Below are positions 32,921-56,331 of a stretch of 64,000 nucleotides of DNA, one piece after another. The notes beneath the pieces were generated by a model. That model did not search any database and was not told where the DNA came from. It saw only the letters and a list, made by a program, of their open reading frames with translations. This DNA comes from a bacterium D16-56 (GTDB lineage: Bacteria > Bacillota > Clostridia > Lachnospirales > Lachnospiraceae), in assembly GCA_003611875.1 (NCBI GenBank), contig RAYY01000003.1, positions 1 to 64,000 of the forward strand. Reading direction: 5' to 3'. Each line of letters opens with the position of its first letter. Within the stretch, counting starts at the first letter, position 1. The position numbers and the translations under genes were made by a program.

Positions 32921-33208
32921 CTATCTATCAATGTTATTCCCTGTTTCCTGACAGACTGCCCTGACCTCTCCGCTTTTAACCAGCCTTTCCTTCTCCTGCC
33001 TTGTAAGCTTCTTTATTTGATACTCCCTCCGCATTGCCTCCTGCCTGGTAGCAAATTCCTCAAAATACACCAGCTTCACAGGCCGCCTGCCGCGGGTATA
33101 CTTTGCCCCCCGCCCCTCATTGTGGGCCTTCACCCGCTCCTGAAGATGGTTTGTCCATCCACAATACAGACTGCCGTCAGCACACTGCAGAAGATAAGTA
33201 TAATTCAT
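32921..33208 (-). CDS. GIY-YIG domain protein (YhbQ/UPF0213 type)
   Basis: A 95-residue single-domain GIY-YIG protein. YTYLLQCADGSLYCGWT holds the GIY-YIG-like core and RVKAHNEGRGAKYTRGRRP the conserved Arg and His region. Family members are small nucleases or nuclease-like proteins of poorly known role, probably in DNA repair. It has no evident link to the glycan genes on either side. The start follows a GTAGGGG site. The 170 bases upstream hold no gene. Confidence 0.85.
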   Translation of the reverse strand: MNYTYLLQCADGSLYCGWTNHLQERVKAHNEGRGAKYTRGRRPVKLVYFEEFATRQEAMRREYQIKKLTRQEKERLVKSGEVRAVCQETGNNIDR

Positions 33209-41673: not shown

Positions 41674-41682
41674 GAGGTCTGT

Positions 41683-42210
41683 ATGAATCCCCTAAGAAAG
41701 CTTTTAAACCAAGTTTTACATGTACTGGCAGGCGGCAGCTTCCTGGCCATGACTGCTCTGACCTGCTGGCAGGTTCTGACCCGCTATGTCCTGAAAAATC
41801 CATCCTCCTGGTCTGAGGAGCTGGTATCCTATTTATTTGCCTGGATGGCTCTTTTAGGAGCTTCCCTGGTAGCAGGCGAACGAGGCCACATGAACATTCC
41901 CCTTCTTATGGACCGGATGGGACCTGCGGCCAGAAAATCCCTGGCCGTCTTTTCGGAGATTGTGGCCTGTCTCTTTGCCGGAATCATTCTGGTATTCGGA
42001 GGCATCCAAATTACCAGTCTGGCCATGGGACAGATGACCTCCTCCCTGGGGATTGCTATCGGTATCTTTTACATTGTACTTCCCTTAAGCGGCATTTTAA
42101 ATATCATTTACACTATTTTAAATATTGTGGAAATTCTCACAGGAAAAATCAGCTTAGACCCTGTCAACGAGACCATCCAAAATGCTCAAAAGATCGGAAA
42201 GGAGGCATAA
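41683..42210 (+). CDS. TRAP transporter small permease, DctQ family
   Basis: A 175-residue protein with four membrane segments. TCWQVLTRYVLKNPSSWSEEL is the typical DctQ signature after the first segment. It forms the transporter core with the large subunit encoded next. It lies 9 bases after the binding-protein gene, with AGGAGG ahead of the start. Confidence 0.88.
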   Translation: MNPLRKLLNQVLHVLAGGSFLAMTALTCWQVLTRYVLKNPSSWSEELVSYLFAWMALLGASLVAGERGHMNIPLLMDRMGPAARKSLAVFSEIVACLFAGIILVFGGIQITSLAMGQMTSSLGIAIGIFYIVLPLSGILNIIYTILNIVEILTGKISLDPVNETIQNAQKIGKEA

Positions 42211-42213
42211 TTT

Positions 42214-43518
42214 ATGGCAATTCAGGCTTTACTCATTATCCTCGCAGTCCTTGCAGTCCTTCTGGCTGTGGGGGTGCCCATCTCCTATGCTATCGGTATT
42301 TCCTCATTGGCCGCCATCCTGCAGGTAGTACCCCTGGATGTATCCGTTCTCACTGCTTCCCAGAGAATCTTTGTGGGAATGAGCAAATTCAGCCTGACGG
42401 CAATCCCGTTTTTTATTCTGGCAGGTAATCTGATGAACCAGGGCGGCATTGCCAGACGCCTGGTAGATTTTGTACTGGCGCTTTTAGGAAAGCTTCCCGG
42501 TTCTCTGCTTGTAACCAATGTGGGAGCCAACGCACTATTCGGGGCAATCTCCGGCTCCGCGGCTGCGGCGGCCGCGGCCGTGGGCAGTATGGTACGGGAA
42601 GGCGAAGAAGATCAAGGCTATAATCCAGCATTATGTGCTGCCACCAACGGAGCCTCTGCTCCCTCTGGTCTTCTGATTCCTCCTTCCAATGCTCTTATCA
42701 CCTATTCCTTAGTATCCGGGGGCACTTCGGTGGCAGCTCTGTTTTTGGCCGGGTATCTTCCCGGCGTGATCTGGGCAGCCTGCTGCATCCTGGTGGCTGT
42801 TGTAATAGCAAAGCGAAATGGTTATCAGGGCATCCCCGGAAAATTTGATTGGAAAAATCTTCTGTCAGCAACCTTAAACGCCATTCCCGCCCTGTCCTTG
42901 ATCGTCGTTGTCATTGGCGGCATCATTGCAGGAGTTTTCACTGCCACAGAGGGTTCTGCCATCGCTGTCGTGTACGCTCTGATCCTAAGCATCTGCTATC
43001 GTAATCTTTCCCTAAAGACCTTCTGGCAGATCGTGGTAGACAGCGCCAAAATGAGCGGCATGATCGTATTTTTGATCGGTGTGTCCAATATTATGGGATG
43101 GGTGATGGCCTTCACCCAGATTCCCCAGGCCATCTCTGCTGCCCTTTTAGGGCTCACAGACAACCGGGTTATCCTTCTTCTTATCATGAATGGGATTCTT
43201 CTGATTTCCGGAACCTTTATGGATGTAACACCTGCCATCCTGATCTTCACCCCCCTGTTCCTTCCGGTGGTCAAGACCTTTGGCATGCACCCGGTTCAAT
43301 TTGGCCTGATTCTTGTGTATAATCTTTGCATTGGGAATATCACACCGCCAGTGGGAAACACCCTGTTTGTGGCCATCAAGGTGGGCAAAACCACCCTGGC
43401 AAAGGTCATGCCCTACATGCTTTTATATTATGGAGCCATCTTAACCGGACTAATGCTAGTCACCTATGTCTCTGCTATCACCTTGGGGCTTCCCATGGCA
43501 GCAGGGATGATCGGATAA
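42214..43518 (+). CDS. TRAP transporter large permease, DctM family
   Basis: A 434-residue protein with about 12 membrane segments. It carries typical DctM stretches PFFILAGNLMNQGGIARRLV, SGSAAAAAAAVGSM and LIPPSNALITYS. It couples Na+ entry to uptake of a carboxylate held by the binding protein. It lies 3 bases after dctQ and is followed by a weak hairpin near 43532-43560. Confidence 0.9.
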   Translation: MAIQALLIILAVLAVLLAVGVPISYAIGISSLAAILQVVPLDVSVLTASQRIFVGMSKFSLTAIPFFILAGNLMNQGGIARRLVDFVLALLGKLPGSLLVTNVGANALFGAISGSAAAAAAAVGSMVREGEEDQGYNPALCAATNGASAPSGLLIPPSNALITYSLVSGGTSVAALFLAGYLPGVIWAACCILVAVVIAKRNGYQGIPGKFDWKNLLSATLNAIPALSLIVVVIGGIIAGVFTATEGSAIAVVYALILSICYRNLSLKTFWQIVVDSAKMSGMIVFLIGVSNIMGWVMAFTQIPQAISAALLGLTDNRVILLLIMNGILLISGTFMDVTPAILIFTPLFLPVVKTFGMHPVQFGLILVYNLCIGNITPPVGNTLFVAIKVGKTTLAKVMPYMLLYYGAILTGLMLVTYVSAITLGLPMAAGMIG

Positions 43519-43646: not shown

Positions 43647-43663
43647 AATTTATAGGATGAATT
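43647..43663 (+). promoter_or_regulatory. Shared 17-bp operator, copy A
   Basis: The sequence AATTTATAGGATGAATT is an interrupted palindrome (AATTnAT-N3-ATnAATT). It is identical to a copy upstream of the dctP gene at 54.4 kb on the other strand (54526-54542). It lies about 23 bases ahead of the -35 box of the redox operon. A second, diverged copy sits past the -10 box. Confidence 0.7.
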
Positions 43664-43685
43664 TAATTTATTTTTTCATAATTCC

Positions 43686-43714
43686 TTGATTTTCCCGGAT
43701 TTCCATGGTATATT
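43686..43714 (+). promoter_or_regulatory. Promoter of the redox/isomerase operon
   Basis: TTGATT (43686-43691) and TATATT (43709-43714) are 17 bp apart. Operator copies flank it on both sides, 75 bp apart, which could allow repression by looping. Confidence 0.65.
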
Positions 43715-43720
43715 AATATA

Positions 43721-43737
43721 TATTTATAGGATGATTG
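43721..43737 (+). promoter_or_regulatory. Shared operator, copy B
   Basis: TATTTATAGGATGATTG matches copy A at 14 of 17 positions. It covers the expected transcription start, the same relative place as copy C at the 54.5 kb promoter. Confidence 0.6.
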
Positions 43738-43766
43738 TACTTTCAAAACAAGTTAGGAGGTTATAC

Positions 43767-45221
43767 ATGGAACAATTTGATGTTCTTGTGATTGGTGCAG
43801 GTGTGGTGGGAAGCGCCATCGCCAGAGAGCTGACCCAGTTTAAGCTGAAAATCGGAGTTCTGGAAAAAAATCTGGATGTGTGCTACGAGACCAGCGGACG
43901 GAACTCTGCCGTAGTACACGGAGGCTTTGCCTACGATGAAGGCACCTTAAAGGCCAGGCTCTGTGTGGAGGGAAACCGGGAAATGACAAAGCTTTCCCAG
44001 GAGCTTGACTTTACCTTTCTCCGGTGCGGCAAGGTTCTCGTAGGAAAAACAGAAGATGATCTTGCCGCCCTAAAGCGTACCATAGCCCAGGGAGAAAGAA
44101 ACGGAGCAGCAAATTTAAAGTTGATCGATAAGGAGGAGCTTCACCGTCTGGTCCCTGCTGCCGTGGGAGAATTTGCCATGTATTCCCCCAATTCCGGCAT
44201 CCTGGATCCCTTTGGCTACACCATTGCCCTGGCAGAAAACGCAGCACAGAACGGCGCCCGCTATTTTTTTGATCAAGAGGTAACATCCATCTCCCGGCAG
44301 GATGGTTTCTATCAGATAACCACCAGCCACGGCGCCTTTCGAACCCGCTGGATCGTCAACAGCGCCGGCCTTGGCTGCGGAAAAATCTCAGACATGCTGG
44401 GAATCTCCGGCTACCATGTGATCGGCTCTAAGGGGGACTATATTATTCTGGACCGCCGCACAGGCTCCAAGCTTCCCATGCCCATTTATCCGGTTCCCTC
44501 AAACACCTACATGGGCATCCATGTGACCAACACAACCGATGGAAATGTAATCATCGGACCCAATGCAGAGCTGGTCACGGATTTTTCCTACTATGGAGTT
44601 CCCCAGTCCAATATGGATTATCTGGCAGAAAGCGCTTTCCGGATCTGGCCTCATATCCACAAGGCAGACTACATACGCAACTACTCCGGCATTCTGCCCA
44701 AATGGGTGGATGATAACGGAGTGATCCAGGATTTTAAGATCGAGATTCGCCCGGAATTGGCTCCCAATGCAGTAAACCTGGTAGGCATCGAGTCTCCCGG
44801 CCTGACGGCCGCCGTACCCATTGGGCGTATGGTAACAGAGATGATGAAGGAATATGAGAACTTCCCCCTCAATCCAGAGTTTCAGCCAAAGCGTACCGGT
44901 ATTCTCCGATTTGAGGCGCAGGATGACCAGACCAAGGCCCGGCTGATTGCCGAAAATCCTGATTATGGAGAAATCATCTGCCGCTGTGAGAAGGTTTCCA
45001 AGGCCGAGATTCTCCAGGCAATCCACAACCCCTTGGGCGTCTCCACTGTTACCGGCATAAAATACCGCACCCGTTCCATGATGGGACGCTGCCAAGGAGG
45101 TTATTGTCAGATGCGCATAGCAAAGCTGCTGGAGGAGGAACTGGGGATTCTCCCTCAGAAGCTTCGGTACGCCCACAGAGATTCCTGGATATTTACAGGA
45201 ACCGTCAGAAAGGAGGTTTGA
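43767..45221 (+). CDS. GlpA/LhgO-like FAD-dependent dehydrogenase with C-terminal [2Fe-2S] domain
   Basis: About 484 residues. The N-terminal FAD site is VLVIGAGVVGSAIARELTQ, followed by the DAO-type fold with TSGRNSAVVHGGF. A C-terminal BFD-like domain has CRCEKV and GRCQGGYC, giving four cysteines for an iron-sulfur cluster. Relatives oxidise glycerol-3-phosphate or 2-hydroxy acids. The ATG at 43767 follows TAGGAGG; 27 more upstream residues are unlikely. With the next two genes it forms the known GlpA-like, GlpB-like, DUF1667 trio. In this setting the substrate may be another hydroxy acid and not glycerol-3-phosphate. Confidence 0.87.
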   Translation: MEQFDVLVIGAGVVGSAIARELTQFKLKIGVLEKNLDVCYETSGRNSAVVHGGFAYDEGTLKARLCVEGNREMTKLSQELDFTFLRCGKVLVGKTEDDLAALKRTIAQGERNGAANLKLIDKEELHRLVPAAVGEFAMYSPNSGILDPFGYTIALAENAAQNGARYFFDQEVTSISRQDGFYQITTSHGAFRTRWIVNSAGLGCGKISDMLGISGYHVIGSKGDYIILDRRTGSKLPMPIYPVPSNTYMGIHVTNTTDGNVIIGPNAELVTDFSYYGVPQSNMDYLAESAFRIWPHIHKADYIRNYSGILPKWVDDNGVIQDFKIEIRPELAPNAVNLVGIESPGLTAAVPIGRMVTEMMKEYENFPLNPEFQPKRTGILRFEAQDDQTKARLIAENPDYGEIICRCEKVSKAEILQAIHNPLGVSTVTGIKYRTRSMMGRCQGGYCQMRIAKLLEEELGILPQKLRYAHRDSWIFTGTVRKEV

Positions 45222-45225
45222 ACAT

Positions 45226-46461
45226 ATGGAAACACATGACGTTGTGATTGTAGGGGGAGGTCCTGCCGGCCTGGCCGCCGCCGCAGAGCTGCACAAAAAC
45301 GGAATTCCGGACATTCTTCTTGTAGAGCGGGAAAAGACCATGGGCGGGATTCTCCGCCAGTGTATCCACGATGGCTTCGGCATGACCCGTTTCCGCCGCA
45401 GCCTAAGCGGTCCTGAATATGCCAAAGCCTTTATTGACCAGGTTTTTGCACTTTCCGTTCCTTTCCTTACCGACACCACGGTCCTTGACATCACCAGGGA
45501 CAAGGTAGTCACCCTGGCTTCCCGGGACGGCCTGAAAAAGCTTCAGGCCAAAGCAGTGATTTTGACCATGGGCTGCCGGGAACGGACCCGGGGCGCCCTT
45601 GGAATACCAGGAGAACGACCTGCCGGCGTGTTTACTGCAGGGGTGGCTCAAAGCTATATTAACCTTTACAACCATATGGTGGGAAGGGAGGTCATTATCC
45701 TTGGCTCTGGAGACATCGGCATGATTATGGCCAGGCGCCTTACCCTGGAAGGGGCCCATGTCCAGGCAGTCTTTGAGATCCAGCCTGTTCCCAGCGGCCT
45801 TCCCAGAAATATCCGCCAATGTCTGGATGATTATCATATCCCTCTGTATTTAAGCCACACCATCACAGCCATTCACGGCAGAGAGCGAGTAACCGGCGTA
45901 ACGGTCTCCCAGGTAGATGAGACCTTAAAGCCCATTCCCGGAACGGAAAAAGAATACTCCTGCGACACTCTTATCCTGTCTGTAGGCTTGATTCCGGAAA
46001 ACGAGCTTTCCATTGACGCGGGAATCCGGCTGGATGACCGGACCCGGGGCGCGGTTGTGGATGAGCATTATCAGACAAGCCAGGACGGGTTTTTCGCCGC
46101 CGGAAACGTACTTCACGTTCACGACCTGGTGGATTTCGTGTCCTTGGAAGCCGAGAAGCTGGCAAAGAGTGTTGCCCAATATGTGAAAAACAGCTCCCTG
46201 CCCCCGTGCCCTGTCCCGGTAAAAGCTGGCCTTGGCATCCGGTATGCCCTTCCTCAAAAAATCAGCGGCCTGGAGGATGTAACCCTCTCCATGCGGGTCA
46301 ACGGTCCATTTCATGACTGTGCTGTTTTTGTGAAACAGGGAAATGAGGTATTAGCCTGTCGGCAGATGAAAAAGGCGCTTCCGGCGGAAATGATCCAGAT
46401 CCATCTTCCCAAAAACGGAATCCGGGGAACCGAAGAAATCGAGGTGAGTGTGGTATGTTAA
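45226..46461 (+). CDS. FAD/NAD(P)-dependent oxidoreductase (GlpB/HcnB-like partner subunit)
   Basis: A 411-residue pyridine-nucleotide-disulfide-type oxidoreductase without a redox CxxC at the usual place. FAD site VIVGGGPAGLAAAAELHKNG, second nucleotide site VIILGSGDIGMIMARRL, and the family stretch GCRERTRGALGIPGERPAGV are clear. It would pass electrons from the upstream dehydrogenase to an acceptor. It lies 4 bases after that gene and overlaps the DUF1667 gene, so all three subunits are coupled. Confidence 0.87.
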   Translation: METHDVVIVGGGPAGLAAAAELHKNGIPDILLVEREKTMGGILRQCIHDGFGMTRFRRSLSGPEYAKAFIDQVFALSVPFLTDTTVLDITRDKVVTLASRDGLKKLQAKAVILTMGCRERTRGALGIPGERPAGVFTAGVAQSYINLYNHMVGREVIILGSGDIGMIMARRLTLEGAHVQAVFEIQPVPSGLPRNIRQCLDDYHIPLYLSHTITAIHGRERVTGVTVSQVDETLKPIPGTEKEYSCDTLILSVGLIPENELSIDAGIRLDDRTRGAVVDEHYQTSQDGFFAAGNVLHVHDLVDFVSLEAEKLAKSVAQYVKNSSLPPCPVPVKAGLGIRYALPQKISGLEDVTLSMRVNGPFHDCAVFVKQGNEVLACRQMKKALPAEMIQIHLPKNGIRGTEEIEVSVVC

Positions 46462-46820
46462 AGGAATTTACTTGTATCCTCTGCCCCAACGGATGCGAAA
46501 TTCAGGCAGAGCTGGATGAAAAAAATACAGTCCAATCCATAAACGGAGCCAACTGCCAGGGAGGTATCAGCTATGTCCGTCAGGAGATTACGGATCCTCA
46601 GCGGACCATTTCCAGCTCCATACTGGTAAAGGGCGGGGCTCTCCCTCTTGTCAGCGTCCGTCTAACCAAACCAGTACCGAAAAATTCTATTTTTCATGTC
46701 ATGGAGCAAATCAAGTCTGTCACCCTTACTGCCCCGGTCCGCACAGGAGATGTAATTCTGTCTAATGTACTTGGCCTTGGCAGCGATGTGATCGCAACAA
46801 AAGATGTGGAGGAAATCTGA
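46455..46820 (+). CDS. DUF1667 small iron-sulfur-type protein
   Basis: A 121-residue protein with CILCPNGC near the N-terminus (Cys7, Cys10, Cys14) and a fourth cysteine at 34, a likely metal or iron-sulfur site. DUF1667 proteins almost always follow GlpA- and GlpB-like flavoproteins and probably form the third subunit of the complex. It overlaps both neighbours by a few bases (ATGTTAA and TGATG). Confidence 0.88.
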   Translation: MLKEFTCILCPNGCEIQAELDEKNTVQSINGANCQGGISYVRQEITDPQRTISSSILVKGGALPLVSVRLTKPVPKNSIFHVMEQIKSVTLTAPVRTGDVILSNVLGLGSDVIATKDVEEI

Positions 46821-47863
46821 TGTATCAGCGAGAATATAACAAGAAAGTACGGGTGGGAATCGTAGGCGCCGGTTCCCATACATACCGGAATCTTCTTCCG
46901 GCTCTCCACTTTCTCCCTGCAGAGCTGGTTGCCATCTGCAACCGAAGCGAAGAACGCTTAAACCGCACCATTGCCGAGTATCATTGTAATGGCTACACCT
47001 GTCCTGAAGAAATGTATGAAAAGGAGCAGCTGGATGGAGTCATCATGGCAGTCTCTCCCTTCCTGCACCCAAAGCTGGCCTGTGAAGCCTTGGCCCACAA
47101 TCTTCATGTTTTCATCGAAAAACCAGCTGCTGCCAGCATGGATGGCATAAGGGAAATGATATCTGCCTCTGAAAAACACAAAAAGCACGTTGTGGTTGGC
47201 TATAAAAAAGCCTTTATGCCAGCCACCTGCAAGGTGACAGAAATCCTGGAAAGCGGACTTTATCCGGATATGAGCAGCATCCTGGCAATCTACCCTATCT
47301 ACATGCCAAAGGATGGACCTGCCTCCTTAAAGTCCGGAGAGTTCAGCGAATGGCTGAAAAACTGCAGCCATCCCTTATCCTTCATGCTTCAGGCTGCCGG
47401 CCCGGTAAAAAGCGTCCAGGCCCTGATCAACGAGCGGGGCTTTGGGGTGGTTCAGCTCCGATTCCAAAACGGAGTCATTGGCAATCTCCACCTGGCTGCC
47501 GGTGAAAAGCCGGCCCGGGATGAGTACAAAATATATGGAAAGGGATGGTCCATTGAGGTTGACTGCAGCAGCAGAGTCACTTTGCACCGGGGTATTCCCT
47601 CCTATGAATATGACTATGCCTCCTCCTTTGCCTCCCCTGGCTTTGAAGGGGGAGACCTGGTATGGGAGCCAGTCACCTGCCAGGCAAGCCCTGAAAATAA
47701 AGCGCTGTTTGTGCAGGGCATGGTTCAGGAACTGGAATATTTCTGTAATTGTATCCTCACGGATCAATCCCCCCAAAAAGGCTCCCTGGCTTTTGCCGGA
47801 GAGATTACAGAGATCTTTCAGGCTGCCCTGCTATCAAACGGAAAGGAGATTTGTATTCCATGA
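46820..47863 (+). CDS. Gfo/Idh/MocA family NAD(P)-dependent dehydrogenase
   Basis: A 347-residue protein. The N-terminal Rossmann domain has VGIVGAGSHTYRNLLPAL and the conserved EKPAA (Glu-Lys-Pro) motif in HVFIEKPAAASMDGI, followed by the GYKKAFMPAT region. Members oxidise or epimerise sugars, inositols or sugar acids. It is coupled to both neighbours (TGATG ahead, ATGA behind), so it belongs to the same pathway as the redox trio and the isomerase. The exact substrate is not clear. Confidence 0.87.
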   Translation: MYQREYNKKVRVGIVGAGSHTYRNLLPALHFLPAELVAICNRSEERLNRTIAEYHCNGYTCPEEMYEKEQLDGVIMAVSPFLHPKLACEALAHNLHVFIEKPAAASMDGIREMISASEKHKKHVVVGYKKAFMPATCKVTEILESGLYPDMSSILAIYPIYMPKDGPASLKSGEFSEWLKNCSHPLSFMLQAAGPVKSVQALINERGFGVVQLRFQNGVIGNLHLAAGEKPARDEYKIYGKGWSIEVDCSSRVTLHRGIPSYEYDYASSFASPGFEGGDLVWEPVTCQASPENKALFVQGMVQELEYFCNCILTDQSPQKGSLAFAGEITEIFQAALLSNGKEICIP

Positions 47864-48678
47864 ATGAACTGCAAAGGCAATATGCCTATCCTCTCTGTAT
47901 CCAGCTAACAATAGGCGAATCCATCTATGAACCAGAATTTATCAAGCTTTTGGAGCTTTTAAAGGTTCATGGCTTTTACGGCGTGGAGTTAAATTCCATT
48001 GATTTTGAGAGCCTTCCTCCCCTTGAGCTGAAATCTCTTTTGGATCAGTATGATCTTCGCCTGACAATGGTCGCTTCCGGCGCCTATGCGAAACGCCATG
48101 GCCTTTCTATCTCCCATGAGGATGAGTCCATTCGGATCCAGAGTGTAAAGGCCCTTAGTCAAATGATTGATTTTGCAGGCGCCATAGACGCTGGTGTGGT
48201 CTGCGGCTTTATCAAGGGAGACGGAAACGGAAATCCGGATATCTGCCGGTCTCAAATAAAAAAATCCTTAAAGGAGCTAAAAGCCGGCGGATATTTCCAT
48301 AAGGCTCCTGTATACATAGAGGCCACCAACCACTATGAAGCCCTTCTTGCCAACACCTTGGAGGATGCCGCCTCATTTACCATAAATATCGGTGAGTCTT
48401 TCTTCATTCTCCCCGATACCTACCACATGAACATAGAGGAAGCCAATATCTATGCCGCCCTTCAAAAGCACCAGGGACTGTACCACAATGTCCATCTATC
48501 TGATAACAACCGGTATTATCCTGGCTTTGGAGCCATAGATTTCCCCGGGATCCTGCGTTTTTTAAAAGCCATTGGCTATGAGGGGACCATTTCCATTGAA
48601 GGAAGGAATTATGGCGCCATTACAGATGATATTCAATATAGCGCCAACTATTTAAAAGCCCTCACCCCACTGCTGTAA
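47860..48678 (+). CDS. TIM-barrel sugar isomerase/epimerase (AP endonuclease family 2)
   Basis: About 272 residues from the ATG that overlaps the upstream stop (ATGA) and follows AAAGGAG. The metal-binding positions of the xylose-isomerase-like fold can be seen in VYIEATNHYE, LPDTYHMN, NVHLSDNNR and SIEGRNYG. It probably isomerises or epimerises the keto product made by the Gfo/Idh/MocA enzyme, a pairing common in inositol and sugar-acid pathways. Confidence 0.86.
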   Translation: MNELQRQYAYPLCIQLTIGESIYEPEFIKLLELLKVHGFYGVELNSIDFESLPPLELKSLLDQYDLRLTMVASGAYAKRHGLSISHEDESIRIQSVKALSQMIDFAGAIDAGVVCGFIKGDGNGNPDICRSQIKKSLKELKAGGYFHKAPVYIEATNHYEALLANTLEDAASFTINIGESFFILPDTYHMNIEEANIYAALQKHQGLYHNVHLSDNNRYYPGFGAIDFPGILRFLKAIGYEGTISIEGRNYGAITDDIQYSANYLKALTPLL

Positions 48679-48748
48679 ACCGATCTGACAACCTGGCAGG
48701 CGCCGCAAAGCGGTACGTGCCGATACCAATCTGTTTAAGAAGAAACAA

Positions 48749-48773
48749 GGGTGAAAGAAAATCATTTTCACCC
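48749..48773 (+). other. Intercistronic hairpin ahead of the aldo/keto reductase gene
   Basis: GGGTGAAA (48749-48756) pairs with TTTCACCC (48766-48773) in the 138-base gap. No T run follows, so it is more likely an mRNA stabiliser or attenuator than a full terminator. Confidence 0.5.
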
Positions 48774-48816
48774 ATACCTGCTTGTGCTGTGAGGCATGCA
48801 AAGAATGGAGGAAAAA

Positions 48817-49668
48817 ATGAAGAATATTCAGGATTTAATCACACTCTCCAACGGAGTGAACATTCACTGTATGGGATATGGAACCTGGAGAACCCCGGCC
48901 GGCGACGAGACAACCACAGCCGTAAAAAATGCTATTGAATGTGGCTTCCGCCATATTGATACTGCCCAGCTTTACGGCAACGAGGAGAGCGTAGGGGAGG
49001 GCATCCGAGCTTCCCAAATCAAACGACAGGAAATTTTTCTTACCACTAAGCTAAAAAACAGCGATCAAGGTTACGATGCCACCTTAAAAGCCTTTGAAGG
49101 CAGCTTAAAACGGCTGAAGGCAGAATATCTGGATCTCTACCTGATCCACTGGCCCGTGCCGGTTCTGTTTAAGGACAACTGGAGGGAGGTCAGCCGCGCA
49201 ACCTGGAAGGCCATGGAGCGTCTGTATGACGAGAAGCTCATCCGCGCCATTGGCCTGAGCAATTTCCTTCCTCACCACATCAAGAACATTGCAAATTTTG
49301 CCAATGTAGCCCCTGTGGTGGACCAGCTTGAGATTCACCCCTGCTTTACGCAAAGAGAGACTGTAAAATACTGCCAGGAGCACAACATTCAGGTTCAGGC
49401 ATGGAGTCCTCTGGGCCACGGCACCATTCTGCAAAATGAGGTTCTGGGCACCATTGCTGCCTCCCATGGCAAAACCCCTGCACAGATAGCCCTTCGATGG
49501 GAGCTTCAGCAGAATATCATCCCCATCTCCAAGTCCATGAAGCCTTCCCGTATGAAGGAAAACGCAGATGTGTTTGACTTTACACTCTCACCAGAAGAAA
49601 TGGACAGAATTTTCGCTCTGGGAGAGGATGGAAGAACCGGGCCAAATCCGGATCATATTGATTTCTGA
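48817..49668 (+). CDS. Aldo/keto reductase
   Basis: About 283 residues. It is a standard barrel with FRHIDTAQLYGNEESVG (Asp and Tyr), TTKLKN (Lys) and YLIHWPVP (His) as the catalytic set, and PISKSMKPSRMKENADVF for NADPH binding. It likely reduces an aldehyde or keto sugar of the island. The ATG at 48817 follows GGAGG; seven more upstream codons are possible but less likely. Last gene of the plus-strand operon, followed by a strong terminator. Confidence 0.9.
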   Translation: MKNIQDLITLSNGVNIHCMGYGTWRTPAGDETTTAVKNAIECGFRHIDTAQLYGNEESVGEGIRASQIKRQEIFLTTKLKNSDQGYDATLKAFEGSLKRLKAEYLDLYLIHWPVPVLFKDNWREVSRATWKAMERLYDEKLIRAIGLSNFLPHHIKNIANFANVAPVVDQLEIHPCFTQRETVKYCQEHNIQVQAWSPLGHGTILQNEVLGTIAASHGKTPAQIALRWELQQNIIPISKSMKPSRMKENADVFDFTLSPEEMDRIFALGEDGRTGPNPDHIDF

Positions 49669-49701
49669 TTCGATGAAAATTTTTTCCGTGTGAAAATGCA
49701 C

Positions 49702-49758
49702 AAAAAGGCTGCTGTAAAATCGGGTGTATCGATCACCCGGGTTTACAGCAGCCTTTTT
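49702..49758. terminator. Bidirectional terminator of the two converging catabolic operons
   Basis: AAAAAGGCTGCTGTAAA (49702-49718) pairs perfectly with TTTACAGCAGCCTTTTT (49742-49758), with an inner GGGTG/CACCC-type stem. A and T runs flank it, so it works in both directions. Confidence 0.93.
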
Positions 49759-49790
49759 TGTATCTGTTCTGCAATATACCCTTTCCATCT

Positions 49791-50546
49791 TTACATGGTC
49801 ATCCCACCGTCAATAGAAATAATACTTCCCGTCATAAATCCCGCCTTTTCGCTGGCAGCAAAAAGAACAGCTTGGGCAATTTCTTCTGGTTCGCCCAAAC
49901 GCCCCATAGGCTGCCGTCCGCAAAATTGCTTCATTGCCAGCTCTGGGTCCGGGGATGTGCGGATCCGCTCCCTGAGAGAAGGTGTCAAGGTTGTTCCTGG
50001 GCACACACAATTTACCTGAATGTTGTAGTGACACAGCTCTAAGGCCATGGCCTTTGTCATTGCGATCACCGCACCCTTGCTGGCTGAATATGCCAGACGA
50101 TTTGTATGACCCTTTATCCCTGCCACAGACGACACATGGACGATCCGCCCTCCTCCCTGCTTCTTCATAATCTTAACGGCTCCCTGTGACATAAAAAAGG
50201 TGCCCATCACATTTACATTCCATGTTTTTTGAAAATCCTCAAAGGTAGTATCCTCAATGGTGCCTCCCAGAACGATCCCTGCATTATTCACCAGCACATC
50301 TAATTTTCCATAGGTCTGCACCGCCAGACCAAGCACTCTGTCGGCATCCCCCCTGTCCGAGATATCCCCCTGAGCAAAAAGGCTTTCTCCTCCATTGCCA
50401 TGAATATCCTCGGCAACCTGCCGGGCAGATTCCGAGACCGAATTGCAGACCACCTTTGCCCCCTTTTGGGCAAAGGCCCGGGCACAAGCCGCCCCGATTC
50501 CCGCCCCTGCTCCGGTTATCAGTATCACCTTATCCTGAAATTCCAC
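49791..50546 (-). CDS. Short-chain dehydrogenase/reductase
   Basis: A 251-residue classical SDR. Cofactor motif ITGAGAGIGAACARAF, NNAG in VLVNNAGIVLGG, catalytic Ser, Tyr and Lys in VSSVAGIKGHTNRLAYSASKG, and the C-terminal SIISIDGG. It probably oxidises a sugar alcohol or hydroxy acid brought in by the adjacent TRAP transporter. It is the last gene of the minus-strand operon dctPQM-epimerase-SDR. Confidence 0.9.
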   Translation of the reverse strand: MEFQDKVILITGAGAGIGAACARAFAQKGAKVVCNSVSESARQVAEDIHGNGGESLFAQGDISDRGDADRVLGLAVQTYGKLDVLVNNAGIVLGGTIEDTTFEDFQKTWNVNVMGTFFMSQGAVKIMKKQGGGRIVHVSSVAGIKGHTNRLAYSASKGAVIAMTKAMALELCHYNIQVNCVCPGTTLTPSLRERIRTSPDPELAMKQFCGRQPMGRLGEPEEIAQAVLFAASEKAGFMTGSIISIDGGMTM

Positions 50547-50573
50547 ATTTCCCTCCGTTTTCTTAAAAGCTTC

Positions 50574-51254
50574 TTAAAATCCCCTTATCCGGTCAATACA
50601 GGCAGCATAATCTTCCTTCTGGAAAAACAGCTCCTGCTTTCCAAGAACATACCCCTCAATTCCGCAATTATGGTACAAATCCGAGATAACCTCTTTTGTG
50701 GCCCCGCCGTCCAGCAGCAGATGATAACTCAAGCCATGATCCTGCCGATATTGATTCAGCTCCACAAATTTCTCTCTGGTATATGGCATAAAGTCTCTTC
50801 CGGCAAATCCCGGATTCACCCCCATAACCATTACATAATCCGTAATGGGAAGCATACTTTTGACACCTTCCAGCGAAGTACAGGGATTTAACACCAGCCC
50901 CGTCTTTTTTCCCAGTCTCTGAATCTGTTCTAAGGTTGCAGAGGGAACCAGCTCTGATTCCGGGTGGATATAGATAATGTCAGCCCCTGCATTTGCCATC
51001 ATTTCCACATAACGGTGAGGCTCCATCACCATCATATGACAATCAATCAGTCTTCTTTTGCCCTGGTCCGTAATCCTGCGGATCATCTCCAGCTCCCTTA
51101 CGGACATTGCAAAATTAGGCACAAACCTTCCGTCCATAATGTCCACATGATAAATATCCATATCTGCGGCATCCAGCTTTTCAATCTCCTCCCGAATGTG
51201 GTCAATTGCCAGATTCAAAATCGAGGGACATAAAATCTTTCTTTTTTCTTCCAT
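50574..51254 (-). CDS. Ribulose-phosphate 3-epimerase family protein (Rpe/AlsE-like)
   Basis: About 226 residues. The start CPSILNLAIDHIREEIEKL, the metal-binding histidine and aspartate in YHVDIMDGRFVPNF and DCHMMVMEP, NPGFAGRDFMPYT and LLDGGA match the family. The usual HLMV is CHMM here, and the protein diverges from housekeeping Rpe, so D-allulose-6-phosphate epimerase or a related sugar-phosphate epimerase is possible. The start was put at the ATG nearest the conserved fold; starts further upstream lack ribosome sites. No kinase lies in the island to supply its phosphorylated substrate. Confidence 0.82.
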   Translation of the reverse strand: MEEKRKILCPSILNLAIDHIREEIEKLDAADMDIYHVDIMDGRFVPNFAMSVRELEMIRRITDQGKRRLIDCHMMVMEPHRYVEMMANAGADIIYIHPESELVPSATLEQIQRLGKKTGLVLNPCTSLEGVKSMLPITDYVMVMGVNPGFAGRDFMPYTREKFVELNQYRQDHGLSYHLLLDGGATKEVISDLYHNCGIEGYVLGKQELFFQKEDYAACIDRIRGF

Positions 51255-51315
51255 ACTTTCCGATTTCTCCTTTTTTACACTTGCCATGATGTAATTTCTG
51301 TTGTCTAAACCGCTG

Positions 51316-52599
51316 TTATCTGCCATACATCAGGTTGGGAATAAACATCACGGCATTGGGGAACAAGGTCAAGATAGCAGCCTCAAGCAGCACAAGTGCA
51401 ATCCAGGGCAGGCAGGCTTTTATGTAATCGTCCAGCTTTATATCCAATATCCCGCAAACCGTGTACATGGCCATGCCGACCGGCGGCGTCATATTTCCCA
51501 TGGTCACAACCGTGCAGAGAATCATACCGAATACCACCGGATCAATTCCAAAGCTTTGTACCATAGGAAGAAGGATGGGAGTTGTCAGAAGAATAATCAC
51601 CGATCCCTCCATAAACATACCGGCAATCACCAAAAGCAGCACAATTAATGACATAACAACCAACGGATTTGTGGTAAAACCCATAACCGCAGTAGTAAAC
51701 TTCTGGGGGAGCTTGTCAATGGGAATCCCATATCCAAACACACCAGACATGGACATCATAAACATAATGGAACCAATATCAATGATAGAATTCTTCATGG
51801 TCTGAAACAAAACCTTGGCTGTCAGCTTTTTATAGATAAACACACCCACAAAAATAGCATACACACAGGCAAAGGAGCCTACCTCTGTGGAGGTAAACAG
51901 TCCCATCCGTATGCCGACCAGAAGAATCAACGGAAAGATAACCGCCCAGATACATTCCTTTAAAAGACCCAGAATCTCCCTGGCAGACGCCCTTTTCTCC
52001 AAAGCCGGCTTTAGCCCATAGCGTCTTGATGCGATTGCCACCATGACCATCATAATCACCATCATCAGGGTACCCACAAAAATGCCGGCAGCAAACAATT
52101 TACCAATGGATACATTGCCCACTGTTCCGTAAGTAATCAATCCCACCCCAGGAGGAATCGTCGCTGTGATCAAGGCAGTAAAGGCAAGAACACACCCTGT
52201 AAATCCCTTGGGATATCCCTGTTTGATCATGTCCGGGCCAAGGACACGGGCCTCCATGGCCGCATCTGCATTGGCAGAGCCGGAGACACCGCCCATTAAA
52301 GTGGAAAGAACAACACTGACCTGAGCCAGCCCCCCGTTCATATGGCCGGTCAGAGCCATAGCCAGCTGAATCAGCTTTTCCGTAATTCCGGAGGCATTCA
52401 TCAAATTCCCTGCAAAAATAAACAGCGGCACTGCCAGCAGGGTGACATTCTGCACCTGAGTGACCGGAAGCTGGGGTACGGTTGTCAGGGGAATCTCCGG
52501 GTGCTGGAAAAAGTACAAAAGTCCCGAGAAAAATACGGAAAAGCCCACCGGAAGACCCAGGAACAGCAAAATAACAAATGCGGTAAATACAATTATCAT
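51316..52599 (-). CDS. TRAP transporter large permease, DctM family
   Basis: A 427-residue, roughly 12-segment membrane protein with VPLFIFAGNLMNASGITEKLI, GGVSGSANADAAMEARVLGPDM and TPPVGMAMYTVC, all typical of DctM. It is the membrane core of the second TRAP system of the island. It lies downstream of the small permease gene on the minus strand, separated by about 100 bases. Confidence 0.9.
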   Translation of the reverse strand: MIIVFTAFVILLFLGLPVGFSVFFSGLLYFFQHPEIPLTTVPQLPVTQVQNVTLLAVPLFIFAGNLMNASGITEKLIQLAMALTGHMNGGLAQVSVVLSTLMGGVSGSANADAAMEARVLGPDMIKQGYPKGFTGCVLAFTALITATIPPGVGLITYGTVGNVSIGKLFAAGIFVGTLMMVIMMVMVAIASRRYGLKPALEKRASAREILGLLKECIWAVIFPLILLVGIRMGLFTSTEVGSFACVYAIFVGVFIYKKLTAKVLFQTMKNSIIDIGSIMFMMSMSGVFGYGIPIDKLPQKFTTAVMGFTTNPLVVMSLIVLLLVIAGMFMEGSVIILLTTPILLPMVQSFGIDPVVFGMILCTVVTMGNMTPPVGMAMYTVCGILDIKLDDYIKACLPWIALVLLEAAILTLFPNAVMFIPNLMYGR

Positions 52600-52699
52600 A
52601 ACGACTCCTTTATCAGATGTCTCTACATTCTGTTATACTTTAAGAGCATACCTCTTTGTCAATGAATTCCATGCTTCTGCATTCTGCTCACAGGTAAAC

Positions 52700-53185
52700 C
52701 TACATTTCATCCTTTAGGTCTGTATGCAAAATATATCGATAATACAAATGTCTCAGCTCATTAATCATCATCATTATCATACTGCAGGGGAGGCTGGCTG
52801 ACACAAAGCTGTAGCTCAGCCATGGAATCGCCTGAAAAACCCGCGCCCTGGATGCAATCACAGATCTCATGCCATAGTAAAACAGAAAACCAATGGAAAA
52901 TATAATAATGGCATGTACCAGTATCTCACAAATCTTCTGCAAAAATCCCGGCAGCTTTGATGTGAGAATATCTACAACCACATGCCGTTTTATCCGAAAG
53001 ACAATATCCGCACTGATAAATGTACTCCAGGCAAAAAGCATAAGAGCCAGATCGTTCCCCCATCGAATCGGATGTCCGGCTGTTCTCATAACTGCTGCTA
53101 TAAAGATGATGGATACACTGGCGCCAAGCAAAATCATGGCCAGAATCACTTCGATATCACATATGCGTCTGTAAAACCTTTCCAA
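52700..53185 (-). CDS. TRAP transporter small permease, DctQ family (TTG start)
   Basis: About 161 residues with four membrane segments and the signature FSTFISADIVFRIKRHVVVD-type loop. The frame is open for 30 codons further upstream to an ATG at 53275, but that extension would be encoded by a hairpin (53202-53232). The TTG at 53185 has a perfect AGGAGG six bases ahead and gives the normal DctQ N-terminus LERFYRRICDIEVILA. I therefore prefer the TTG start. Confidence 0.82.
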   Translation of the reverse strand: MERFYRRICDIEVILAMILLGASVSIIFIAAVMRTAGHPIRWGNDLALMLFAWSTFISADIVFRIKRHVVVDILTSKLPGFLQKICEILVHAIIIFSIGFLFYYGMRSVIASRARVFQAIPWLSYSFVSASLPCSMIMMMINELRHLYYRYILHTDLKDEM

Positions 53186-53201
53186 TTTATACCTCCTGAC
53201 A

Positions 53202-53232
53202 AGGAGTCGGATGCCTGAGGCATCCAACTCCT
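53202..53232 (-). other. Strong stem-loop between dctP and dctQ
   Basis: AGGAGT-C-GGATGCC (53202-53215) pairs with GGCATCC-A-ACTCCT (53219-53232) around a 3-nt loop, with one mismatch. No T run follows on the minus strand. A stem at this place commonly protects the binding-protein mRNA, so that more binding protein than permease is made. Confidence 0.7.
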
Positions 53233-53324
53233 GTTGAATGATGTCACGACTCTGCTCTGCAGGATTCTCTGCCATAAGCGAGTCATTTTAAAGACAGGCT
53301 TCCTTCCACAGCGGACTCCCCATT

Positions 53325-54425
53325 TTACTGTTTGCCGATATCCTTGTAAACTGCTTCCTTCACTGCCGAAAGATTCAGAGCATCATAGGCTTTCTGGCTG
53401 TTTGCCTTAAATGCCTCCATGTCGATCTCATCCGGCCCGATAACCGTGATTCCTGCATCGATCATGGCCTGCTTACTGCCTGCGGTCTGCTCTGCAAGAG
53501 CAATGGTCTCCTCCTCACCGAACTTATTGCACTCGTCAATAAAAATCTTCTGATACTCCTCCGGCAGAGAATCCATCCACTCCTGGCTGACGATCATGGT
53601 ATTGATGGCAAAGAAATGTCCTGTCTCAATAACATAATCACAAACCTCATGAATCTTCAAATTCAGTGCATTATTGTAGGGAAGCTCACAGCCGTCCACA
53701 ACCTTGGTCTGAATACCTGTATATACCTCTCCAAGGCTCAGTGCCGCTGCCGTACATCCAAGGCTGTTGACAGACTCAACCCAGATAGGAGCCGGTGCCG
53801 TGCGGATCATCAGCCCCTTCAAATCATCCGGTTTATAAGCTGCCTTATTGGTAAACAAATGTCTTGGTCCCTGATCCCAGTCCCATGAGAAATTGCAGAT
53901 ATTATACTCATCTGCCAGCTTCTTATTCAGGTCAATGATCGTCTGGGAATCTCGCAGGGCAAATGCCTCCTCCTGATTGTCAATAAAATATGCCGCATTG
54001 CAGACAGAAAGGTCATTTACATAAGAACCAAGCCTTGCAAAGTCTGTCTGCCAGCCAATATTTGCTCCCTGACGGATCTGCTCAATAACATCCTCCTCGG
54101 TTCCCAACTGGGCGTTGGCATAAATCTCAATCTCAACCTCCCCGTTGGTTTTCTCCCGAACGGAATCTGCCCACTTCTGCATATAAATGTGAGGAAGATC
54201 CTGCTCTGTCAGAGTGTGTCCGAAACGCAGCACATACTTGGCCTCGCCTGCAGGGGCTGCTGCCTCTGTTTCTTCTTCCTTACCTGCTTCTTCTGCAGCA
54301 TTTGCTGCCTCTGCAGCCTTTGGCGCCTCAGTAGCCGGAGCCGAAGAACCTCCCCCGCCGCATCCTGCTGCCGAAAAAGCCACCATCGCTGCCATCGCTG
54401 CTGCCATACAACTTCTTTTTCTCAT
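53325..54425 (-). CDS. TRAP transporter solute-binding lipoprotein, DctP family
   Basis: A 366-residue protein. The signal peptide ends in a lipobox (SAAGC, Cys22), then an Ala/Glu-rich tether of about 40 residues, then the DctP domain starting YVLRFGHTLTEQDLPH. The ligand region reads GLMIRTAPAPIWVESVNSLG, with the carboxylate-binding arginine, and EVYTGIQTKVVDGCELP. It differs clearly from the binding protein at 40.6 kb, so the two systems probably take different, related acids. The start follows GAGGAGG. Two tandem promoters lie upstream. Confidence 0.9.
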   Translation of the reverse strand: MRKRSCMAAAMAAMVAFSAAGCGGGGSSAPATEAPKAAEAANAAEEAGKEEETEAAAPAGEAKYVLRFGHTLTEQDLPHIYMQKWADSVREKTNGEVEIEIYANAQLGTEEDVIEQIRQGANIGWQTDFARLGSYVNDLSVCNAAYFIDNQEEAFALRDSQTIIDLNKKLADEYNICNFSWDWDQGPRHLFTNKAAYKPDDLKGLMIRTAPAPIWVESVNSLGCTAAALSLGEVYTGIQTKVVDGCELPYNNALNLKIHEVCDYVIETGHFFAINTMIVSQEWMDSLPEEYQKIFIDECNKFGEEETIALAEQTAGSKQAMIDAGITVIGPDEIDMEAFKANSQKAYDALNLSAVKEAVYKDIGKQ

Positions 54426-54525
54426 TCTTGTTCCTCCTCATATGTTTTTTCGTAGCTTGTGAGCCTCTTTTGCCACAGGCTTCTTTATATAGAACCCTCT
54501 GCGGGATTGCTATTTTTCTCGTCAG

Positions 54526-54542
54526 AATTCATCCTATAAATT
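54526..54542 (-). promoter_or_regulatory. Shared 17-bp operator, copy C
   Basis: On the minus strand this reads AATTTATAGGATGAATT, identical to copy A at 43647-43663. It starts 10 bases past the -10 box of the proximal dctP promoter and covers the early transcribed region, a position typical for a repressor. Confidence 0.72.
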
Positions 54543-54552
54543 CTTTAAAGTG

Positions 54553-54581
54553 AGTATACTCTATTTTTACCTATATTTCAA
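54553..54581 (-). promoter_or_regulatory. Proximal promoter of the dctP operon
   Basis: On the minus strand TTGAAA (54576-54581) and TATACT (54553-54558) are 17 bp apart, close to the sigma-A consensus. Confidence 0.75.
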
Positions 54582-54720: not shown

Positions 54721-54737
54721 AATTCATCCTTTATATT
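54721..54737 (-). promoter_or_regulatory. Shared operator, copy D
   Basis: It matches copy C at 15 of 17 positions. It lies about 19 bases past the -10 box of the distal minus-strand promoter, so each of the two dctP promoters has an operator just downstream. Confidence 0.65.
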
Positions 54738-54744
54738 ATCAAAA

Positions 54745-54763
54745 TGTATACTAGTATCATACA
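54745..54763. promoter_or_regulatory. 19-bp dyad overlapping the distal promoter
   Basis: TGTATACTAGTATCATACA has matching ends TGTAT/ATACA and overlaps the -10 box of the distal dctP promoter. It resembles GntR/FCD operators in symmetry and may bind the regulator encoded at 54926-55636. Confidence 0.5.
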
Positions 54764-54784
54764 CGACTGCGCATCATATGTCAA
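54756..54784 (-). promoter_or_regulatory. Distal promoter facing the dctP operon
   Basis: On the minus strand TTGACA (54779-54784) and TATGAT (54756-54761) are 17 bp apart. A transcript from here would have a leader of over 300 bases before dctP. Confidence 0.6.
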
Positions 54785-54925: not shown

Positions 54926-55636
54926 ATGTCATACATAGTTTCCAGTCACCCCAACACTCTGAATCTTACACAAACCATATACAAACAGTTGAGAGAAGAT
55001 ATCTTCTCTATCCGGCTAATTCCCGGTGAGAAGCTAAGCGAAATGAAGCTGGCCTCTCAATATGGCTGCAGCCGCATTCCGGTTCGCGAGGCGCTGCATC
55101 AGCTTCGCCTGGAGGGCTGCATTGACTCCAGGCCCCAGATCGGCAGCTTTATTTCGTATATTGACTATGAAAATCTGGAGCAGGTGCGATATGTACGAGA
55201 ATGTCTGGAAACACAGGTTATGCTGAATGCCCTGCGGGAGAATGCCTATGATGATTCCATTGATGAGCTTCAGTCGCTATTAGATCAGCAGTGGAATGCC
55301 TACAAGAAGAAGGAATTGATTTTGGCTCATCAGTTAGATGATTTGTTTCATCTTTTTTTTCTCAAGCTGCCCCACAAAGAGTTTGTCCGTGATTATATGG
55401 GCGCTAACAACGTTCACTATCAGAGAGCCCGCTTCCTGGCCCTGAAATATGACCCAAGTCCGGAGGCCCTGGTATGGCAGCATCAGGCAATCCTGGATGC
55501 CGTAGCAGCCAGGGATGAGACCGCCCTGACAAAAGCCATTCACATTCATTTGAACAATCTTTATCGGGTCATTGATTCCTCCTCCGAGGAAATCAGAAAC
55601 TATATCCGCCATCATAAAAAGCCCGTCCGTGTTTAG
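54926..55636 (+). CDS. GntR-family regulator, FCD domain
   Basis: About 236 residues. The N-terminal winged helix (QTIYKQLREDIFSIRLIPGE, then LASQYGCSRIPVREALHQL) is the GntR fold; the C-terminal all-helical FCD domain holds the ligand and metal histidines (HQLDDLFHLFFLKL, QHQAILDA, HIHLNNLY). FCD regulators usually repress and are released by small acids. Divergent from dctP, it is the best candidate for binding the shared 17-bp operator. The ATG at 54926 follows AGGAG; a GTG eight codons upstream lies over that site. Confidence 0.88.
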   Translation: MSYIVSSHPNTLNLTQTIYKQLREDIFSIRLIPGEKLSEMKLASQYGCSRIPVREALHQLRLEGCIDSRPQIGSFISYIDYENLEQVRYVRECLETQVMLNALRENAYDDSIDELQSLLDQQWNAYKKKELILAHQLDDLFHLFFLKLPHKEFVRDYMGANNVHYQRARFLALKYDPSPEALVWQHQAILDAVAARDETALTKAIHIHLNNLYRVIDSSSEEIRNYIRHHKKPVRV

Positions 55637-55653: not shown

Positions 55654-56331
55654 TTATAGCTCCTGAAGGTATCGGTTCTGATTATACAAAAGATGATAGC
55701 TCATGGCCTGTCCGGCTTCGATGGGCTTTTGATCGCGAATGGCAATAAAGATATTTCTGTGGGAAACCAGGGTCTGCTGATATTCCTGTTTTTTTACTCC
55801 GGAGGAAAATTCTGCAATTCCCTTTGTGATAACCGGAATCAGCTCTGCTATCACCCTGTTGTGGGTACAATTTGCAATACAGGTATGAAACTCTCCGTCC
55901 TCCACAGAGAAATTACTGCGCTCAGTCATAGCCTGCTCCACGTTTTTTAACGCCTCCTCAAGACGGGCCAGCTCCTCCTCCGTCCGGTTCTGAGCGGCAA
56001 TGGAAGCAATCTGAGGCTCAATAATCACCCTGGCCTGAAGCAGATCCTCAATCAGCTTTTTCCTGTCATCCACCATAAAAAACCCCAGCGGATCATCGGA
56101 AATCCCGTTCTTGTCCGAGACAAAGGAACCGGCCCCCTGGCGTATTACCACAATATTCCTGGAAAGCAAAAGTCTTAAAGCCTCCCGCACCGTATTCCTT
56201 CCTACCCCCAAAAGCTTTGACAGCTCCATTTCTGTGGGCAGCTTATCCCCTGCTGTCAGATTATGATCCTTAATATACTGCAGGATATCCTCTGATGATT
56301 TTTCCACCCGCGTTTGTCCCGTAGCTCTCAT
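55654..56331 (-). CDS. GntR-family regulator, FadR/FCD subfamily
   Basis: A 225-residue regulator. The N-terminal helix-turn-helix reads KLPTEMELSKLLGVGRNTVREALRL-like, the FadR branch, and the FCD domain holds FHTCIANCTHNRVIAELIPV and SHRNIFIAI with ligand histidines. It converges on the first GntR gene. It may control the ABC-esterase island on its upstream side or the TRAP island downstream; no operator match decides this. Confidence 0.86.
   Translation of the reverse strand: MRATGQTRVEKSSEDILQYIKDHNLTAGDKLPTEMELSKLLGVGRNTVREALRLLLSRNIVVIRQGAGSFVSDKNGISDDPLGFFMVDDRKKLIEDLLQARVIIEPQIASIAAQNRTEEELARLEEALKNVEQAMTERSNFSVEDGEFHTCIANCTHNRVIAELIPVITKGIAEFSSGVKKQEYQQTLVSHRNIFIAIRDQKPIEAGQAMSYHLLYNQNRYLQEL

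Follow-up and report, generated by a model that had tools for sequence, protein, structure and literature searches.

The 64,000-nucleotide window analyzed here, the whole stretch of DNA from the Lachnospiraceae bacterium D16-56 (contig RAYY01000003.1), carries one 17-base-pair (bp) sequence, AATTTATAGGATGAATT, exactly at 43647-43663 on the plus strand and again at 54526-54542 on the minus strand, at the promoters of an operon of oxidoreductase genes (the redox operon) and of an operon for TRAP-type uptake (the second TRAP operon). Such an arrangement raises the question of which regulator reads the element, and whether uptake and oxidation are controlled as one. Two neighboring genes encode GntR-family proteins with an FCD domain, GntR1 and GntR2, and an earlier note on this DNA had favored GntR1, the nearest divergent regulator, as the protein that binds the 17-mer. 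The comparison of genomes described below makes it highly probable that the 17-mer is instead the operator of GntR2, an FCD-type GntR repressor that would control the redox and TRAP operons from a LutR-like operator, perhaps by looping, with GntR1 acting as a second control of the TRAP operon. The elements concerned are as follows.

43647-43663, plus strand: O1, upstream GntR2-type operator of the redox operon; exact 17-mer, matrix score 27.0, 22 bp upstream of the -35
43686-43714, plus strand: predicted redox operon promoter, TTGATT-17-TATATT with TG before the -10; equivalent in 16/16 genomes
43721-43737, plus strand: O2, GntR2-type operator over the likely transcription start; score 18.0, 6 bp after the -10, 74 bp from O1
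54526-54542, minus strand: GntR2-type operator, exact 17-mer; score 27.0, 10 bp after the -10 of P2
54553-54581, minus strand: predicted TRAP promoter P2, TTGAAA-17-TATACT; its -10 overlaps the GTATAC box at 54554-54559
54721-54737, minus strand: weaker GntR2-type operator; score 16.5, 18 bp after the -10 of P1
54746-54751, no strand assigned: probable GntR1 box, the GTATAC core of ATGTATACTAGTAT, located 4 bp past the P1 -10
54756-54784, minus strand: predicted TRAP promoter P1, TTGACA-17-TATGAT
54926-55636, plus strand: GntR1 (GntR and FCD domains), which probably binds the GTATAC boxes and not the 17-mer
55654-56331, minus strand: GntR2 (GntR and FCD domains), probable binder of the 17-mer

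Distribution and conservation of the 17-mer

The 17-mer is a dyad of the form AATTyAT-3-ATrAATT that is imperfect in every copy. Besides the two exact occurrences, the window holds weaker copies at 43721-43737 (three mismatches) and 54721-54737 (two mismatches) and a further three-mismatch match at 33202 (minus strand), giving five matches with up to three mismatches against 0.34 expected, a number reached in none of 100 shuffles. These counts bear out the earlier note, which had described exact copies at two operon promoters with diverged copies of 14/17 and 15/17 and had held a chance origin to be unlikely; its statement that three of the four sites lie past a -10 box also stands (43721, 54526, and 54721 lie 6, 10, and 18 bp after it, respectively). 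The genome scan that it proposed was made with consensus patterns, whose matches were then scored with the matrix described below. In the host genome (G000; 5,542,728 bases in 202 contigs), the only exact copies are the two in the window, whereas matches with up to three mismatches number 35 against 24 for the reversed pattern, so that this tail is mostly chance. The comparison of intergenic regions in relatives that it likewise proposed was favorable: all four sites are present in the sister genome G309, where the two strong ones (43647 and 54526) are identical, that at 43647 despite diverged flanks, and the 54721 site is kept with one mismatch more.

A matrix was built from 28 sites of 14 genomes, with the window's genome and G309 left out, and has the consensus WATTYATRGGATGAATW. 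Among 127,968 window positions, only four reach a score of at least 16, and these are 43647 and 54526 (27.0 each), 43721 (18.0), and 54721 (16.5); 60 simulated 64 kb sequences contained on average 0.08 such positions. With a degenerate consensus and at most one mismatch, 16 genomes gave 44 matches against 4 for the reversed pattern, while the 11 genus genomes lacking GntR2 gave 5 against 4. Two of these five lie in reading frames, one where two TRAP genes meet, and two outside the listed frames, and all five are treated as chance.

That the repeat is a coincidence or a piece of duplicated sequence without regulatory role was already disfavored and is scarcely credible. Family-wide, the exact 17-mer was found in only 2 of 397 genomes, the window's own and G262; it is kept in G309 between diverged flanks, and a matrix trained without the window's genome and G309 recovers all four sites. 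What can be said for a coincidence is that the G262 copy (L050 1501-1517) stands in an unrelated setting. That copy is itself probably due to chance; it lies just upstream of a gene pair, which we take to resemble Phd/Doc. Four strings 11-14 letters long, one of which does not truly belong to the 17-mer, turned up in the literature only in papers unrelated by title.

Co-occurrence of GntR2, redox genes, and operator sites

GntR2 matches the Pfam models PF00392 (63.3 bits, cut-off 27) and PF07729 (83.3 bits, cut-off 24.3), which places it among GntR/FCD regulators. It stays below the NCBIfam cut-offs for NanR (113.3 of 260), LldR (96.4 of 311), UxuR (74.6 of 442), and ExuR (50 of 396); since no named NCBIfam regulator cut-off is passed among the listed matches, it can be filed only as an FCD GntR regulator. 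Its match to the solved chain 8pqm covers the DNA-binding domain only (E 9.3e-06); the LutR paper discussed below (PMC11734750) mentions that code twice.

With E values up to 1e-55, homologs of GntR2 were found in 13 of the 24 genomes searched in the genus and in 5 of the 299 searched in the family, the window's genome being counted in both sets. These 13 genus genomes are also the ones with redox orthologs at E below 1e-240 (72-88% identity). With a looser threshold of 1e-150, redox matches extend to 15 of the 24, the two additional genomes having only homologs of 50-54% identity. The probability of this coincidence is 4e-7 if the genomes, which are related, are taken as independent. Genus and family together yield 17 distinct GntR2 homologs, and for 16 of these the redox promoter carries a pair of sites. 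The remaining one, in G110, is the most distant (44%); it comes with no site pair, and there are no redox genes among the open reading frames listed around it. Put the other way, a 17-mer-like pair flanks the redox promoter in all 16 examined genomes that hold both GntR2 and the redox gene. In G303 this pair lies on a contig edge, which is taken as the missing upstream part of the redox gene from synteny with G306. The redox genes are within about 2 kb of GntR2 in 12 of the 17 genomes, the exceptions being the window, G309, G317 (about 8 kb), G301 (contig break), and G110.

Four distant redox homologs (49-54%) have no site scoring at least 13, and among closer orthologs (63-73%) 3 of 19 lack a site of at least 14 (G253, G215, and G353); G253 and G215 gave no GntR2 match in the family search, and G353 lay outside the GntR2 search. 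The family redox search missed the known G033 redox ortholog, so that an absence there is weak evidence. No site with a score of at least 16 lies upstream of GntR2 that would suggest autoregulation.

GntR2 binding to the 17-mer is something we infer, and it may be asked whether a third, unlinked regulator common to these genomes owns the element. GntR2 does stand apart from the redox operon in the window and in G309, and about 8 kb away in G317. The coincidence of GntR2 and redox genes in the genus, together with their proximity in most of the 17 genomes, argues for GntR2 and makes such a third protein quite improbable.

Several genes near GntR2 homologs are recorded here as observations. A protein matching the glucuronyl esterase family PF22244 (56684-57871) adjoins GntR2 in the window, and beside GntR2 in G205 (L080 6287-9236) are proteins that we presume to be UxuA and UxuB. 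In G269, a gene with the lactate racemase N-terminal domain PF09861 (L081 13741-14991) follows the redox genes, as does a protein of similar look in G316.

GntR1 and the GTATAC boxes

The earlier note's choice of GntR1 has its position in its favor, as GntR1 adjoins the TRAP sites and has an ortholog of 89-90% identity in G309, the genome in which all four sites are kept. A search for GntR1 at E up to 1e-40 matched 4 of the 299 genomes searched in the family, and one at E up to 1e-30 matched 2 of the 24 in the genus, each count again including the window's genome. At these thresholds 13 of the 16 site-pair genomes have no match, the remainder being the window's genome, G309, and G205. G205 carries both regulators at separate loci, with GntR1 on a different contig from the sites; the 17-mer-like pair occurs only at the GntR2 locus (L080), and the 20 kb around GntR1 (L040) contain no site scoring at least 13. 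Three distant GntR1 homologs (40-47%) adjoin a TRAP operon and an epimerase 77-82% identical to that of the window, and their loci, 15-20 kb each, are likewise without a 17-mer-like site of at least 13; one (L041) has two four-mismatch matches, both below that score. Between GntR1 and epimerase these loci instead contain 4, 3, and 2 GTATAC boxes in 493, 427, and 284 bp, for example AAACTAGTATACAGTTT. GntR1 as the binder of the 17-mer was rejected because its distant homologs go with GTATAC and not with the 17-mer, which GntR2 homologs track; we regard that assignment as very improbable.

The window itself contains ten GTATAC sequences, two of which lie in the GntR1-TRAP intergenic region (54554-54559 and 54746-54751) and are kept in G309. 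These boxes, ATGTATACTAG and GAGTATACTC, are 192 bp apart (194 in G309). Both, and those at the three distant loci, fit the operator consensus NyGTM-N0-1-KACNy that is given for FadR-subfamily regulators in the part of the source available (PMC4494728); the 17-mer does not fit it, and the 28-site matrix has no central GT/AC. Conserved in G309 and similar to the boxes at the distant GntR1 loci, the two GTATAC boxes that overlap or adjoin the -10s of the TRAP promoters are probably GntR1 operators.

Promoter architecture and operator spacing

At all 16 redox promoters, the start of O2 falls 6-7 bp beyond the -10 of a predicted TTGNNN-17-hexamer promoter, as picked by a score that favors a TTG start and a 17 bp spacer. 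Promoters in the redox and TRAP regions are consensus matches only, and their number per region is near that in shuffles. The gap between O1 and the -35 varies (12-13, 22-24, 42, or, in G205, 95 bp) while that between the -10 and O2 is constant, and consequently O1 and O2 are 64-65, 74-76, 95, or 148 bp apart, which is near 6, 7, 9, and 14 turns at 10.5 bp. A phase test on the four spacing classes gave a resultant of 0.96 at 10.5 bp, with a simulated p of 0.007, or 0.02 when the best period from 10 to 11 was allowed, and the spacing class changed at least five times on a quick tree with several weak branches. The evidence for helical phasing of the redox site pairs is suggestive only. In six loci (L087, L089, L090, L091, L094, and L095) a third, weaker site-like sequence, such as AATTTATATGATGTATT, follows O2 at a distance of about 38-42 bp, inside the first redox codons, and may be coding sequence only.

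The spacing fits cooperative binding or looping, and it also fits an activator-type O1, at which GntR2 would contact RNA polymerase and 10 bp steps would keep it on the same face of the promoter. It is between O1 and the -35 that the spacing steps fall, with the distance from the -10 to O2 held at 6-7 bp, as an activator would have it; yet O2 over the start site is in a repressor position, the 95 bp between O1 and the -35 in G205 is far for direct contact, and both TRAP promoters have their site downstream of the -10. We therefore consider an activating O1 unlikely, and take O1 rather as a partner of O2 in repression by GntR2.

Several observations weigh against assigning the 17-mer to GntR2 as a repressor of both operons. 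In the window, GntR2 adjoins the start of neither operon: it is separated from the TRAP operon by GntR1 and from the redox operon by 10 kb. Genomes that share GntR2 and redox genes are related, and 13 of 24 does not represent 24 independent trials. The TRAP site pair, at 195 bp (197 in G309), is out of the helical phase of the redox pairs. Of the 44 matches to the degenerate consensus, 17 lie away from redox and TRAP promoters, above the 4 of the reversed control; 14 of them were examined (one on G205:C12 and two on G033:C14 were left out) and all 14 are inside reading frames. Finally, matches inside genes elsewhere in the host genome have scores at or above that of the weak 54721 site (16.5), namely 21.0 at C33:22387, 18.3 at C157:50608, 17.7 at C202:10704, and 17.1 at C168:18296.

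Outside the window, the host genome has six matches scoring at least 15 (15.9 to 21.0), each within a long reading frame. The frame check was made on 28 of the 35 host-genome loci with up to three mismatches (L003-L030, three of them window sites) and was loose, accepting any stop-to-stop frame of at least 100 codons on either strand, so that the window sites 43721 and 54721 also pass; four loci in no such frame score 11.7 or less. Within the window, the match at 33202 (15.4) spans the start codon of an open reading frame of 95 amino acids, and one at C128:1264 (11.8) lies just ahead of a start codon.

Redox and TRAP operons as one probable pathway

The genes behind these promoters are listed below, the last redox entry being probably part of the same operon.

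43767-45221, plus strand: flavin adenine dinucleotide (FAD)-dependent oxidoreductase with DAO and BFD-like [2Fe-2S] domains, which opens the redox operon
45226-46461, plus strand: pyridine-nucleotide-disulphide-type (Pyr_redox) FAD oxidoreductase
46455-46820, plus strand: DUF1667 protein
46820-49668, plus strand: Gfo/Idh/MocA oxidoreductase, xylose-isomerase-like TIM barrel, and aldo-keto reductase
49791-54425, minus strand: second TRAP operon, with DctP (53325-54425), DctQ (52700-53275), and DctM (51316-52599)
50574-51326 and 49791-50546, minus strand: remaining genes of that operon, a ribulose-phosphate 3-epimerase family protein and a short-chain dehydrogenase (SDR), respectively

In G314 these gene sets form a single run (L077 9041-18744) of GntR2, redox, TRAP, epimerase, SDR, and Gfo/Idh genes behind a promoter with sites scoring 22.3 and 18.6. 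Identities to the window are 75-79% for the TRAP binding protein, 78% for DctM, 84% for the epimerase, 60% for the SDR, and 42% for Gfo/Idh; a DctQ gene was not identified in the list of open reading frames, and GntR2 was placed by protein search at a position where that list shows an overlapping frame. No GntR1 match was found in the G314 genome. Among the 24 genus genomes, 3 encode the TRAP binding protein, and each of these also has GntR2. The merged arrangement of G314 is the best support for the view that the redox and TRAP operons serve one pathway; with the four sites kept in G309, it also supports the single regulon over both operons that had been proposed earlier.

Judging by the domain names, the substrate may be a hydroxy acid or a sugar acid. 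The TIM-barrel protein has as its best NCBIfam match the 5-keto-L-gluconate epimerase IolO, below the IolO cut-off. A first TRAP operon (40585-43518) stops 128 bp short of O1, and at up to three mismatches no 17-mer-like site belonging to it was found.

A model of regulation

At the redox operon, one GntR2 dimer would sit over the start site at O2 and another upstream of the -35 at O1, and together they would keep the promoter shut, possibly with the intervening 64-148 bp drawn into a loop, until GntR2 is released by an acid effector. In the window species and its sister G309, a GntR2 operator would also lie past both promoters of the TRAP/epimerase/dehydrogenase operon, and with the same operator at both, uptake and oxidation would be switched together. 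GntR1 may provide a second, independent control of the TRAP operon through the GTATAC boxes that overlap or adjoin the two -10 regions.

More tentatively, and with somewhat less than an even chance in our estimate, the TRAP promoters are shared by two FCD repressors whose operators differ in type, with GntR1 boxes overlapping or adjoining each -10 and GntR2 boxes farther downstream, while GntR2 acts alone at the redox operon, a two-signal logic for uptake, and the phased redox sites (6, 7, 9, or 14 turns, with at least five class changes) mark a short repression loop. If this is true, such a loop formed by an FCD regulator could be read from genomes alone.

The analysis corrects which of two adjacent repressors probably owns the 17-mer operator, and it joins a so far uncharacterized operon of FAD/[2Fe-2S] oxidoreductases and an operon for TRAP uptake into one probable pathway, of which G314 has the merged form. 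It also yields an operator of 17 bp that can be tested and, in the spacings between operators, a natural series with which looping by FCD regulators can be studied.

Comparison with known systems

FadR-subfamily regulators belong to the same protein family, and the GTATAC boxes near GntR1 agree with their operator as far as it is described in the available portion of the source (PMC4494728), unlike the 17-mer, which is without the GT...AC core. For Atu1419 of Agrobacterium fabrum, an FCD regulator of the VanR group, the accessible text reports ATGTATACAT boxes, one pair of which is 190 bp apart, and a tetramer that loops DNA (PMC7797058). The distance between the two GTATAC boxes of the window is closely similar, but these putative GntR1 boxes are less symmetric than those reported in that text.

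LutR of Bacillus subtilis is of the FCD type, and in a LutR-type regulon binding is modulated by L-lactate. In the part of the source available, LutR is described as a GntR-family regulator of lactate utilization whose operator, TCATC-N1-GATGA, lies past the promoters of an operon for oxidation and of a permease gene (PMC11734750). The proposed targets of GntR2 differ from lutABC and the lactate permease gene lutP, being genes for DAO/BFD, Pyr_redox, and DUF1667 proteins and a TRAP transporter, and relative to the LutR operator as given there, the left half-site in the window is degenerate (TYATR, not TCATC), AAT/ATT flanks are present, and a second site lies upstream of the promoter. The likenesses are a presumed GntR-family repressor, a consensus (TYATR-N1-GATGA) with the same N1 spacing and the same right half GATGA (PMC11734750), and a site downstream of the predicted promoter, at the redox operons in all 16 genomes as well as at both TRAP promoters. 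By this analogy, GntR2 probably works like LutR.

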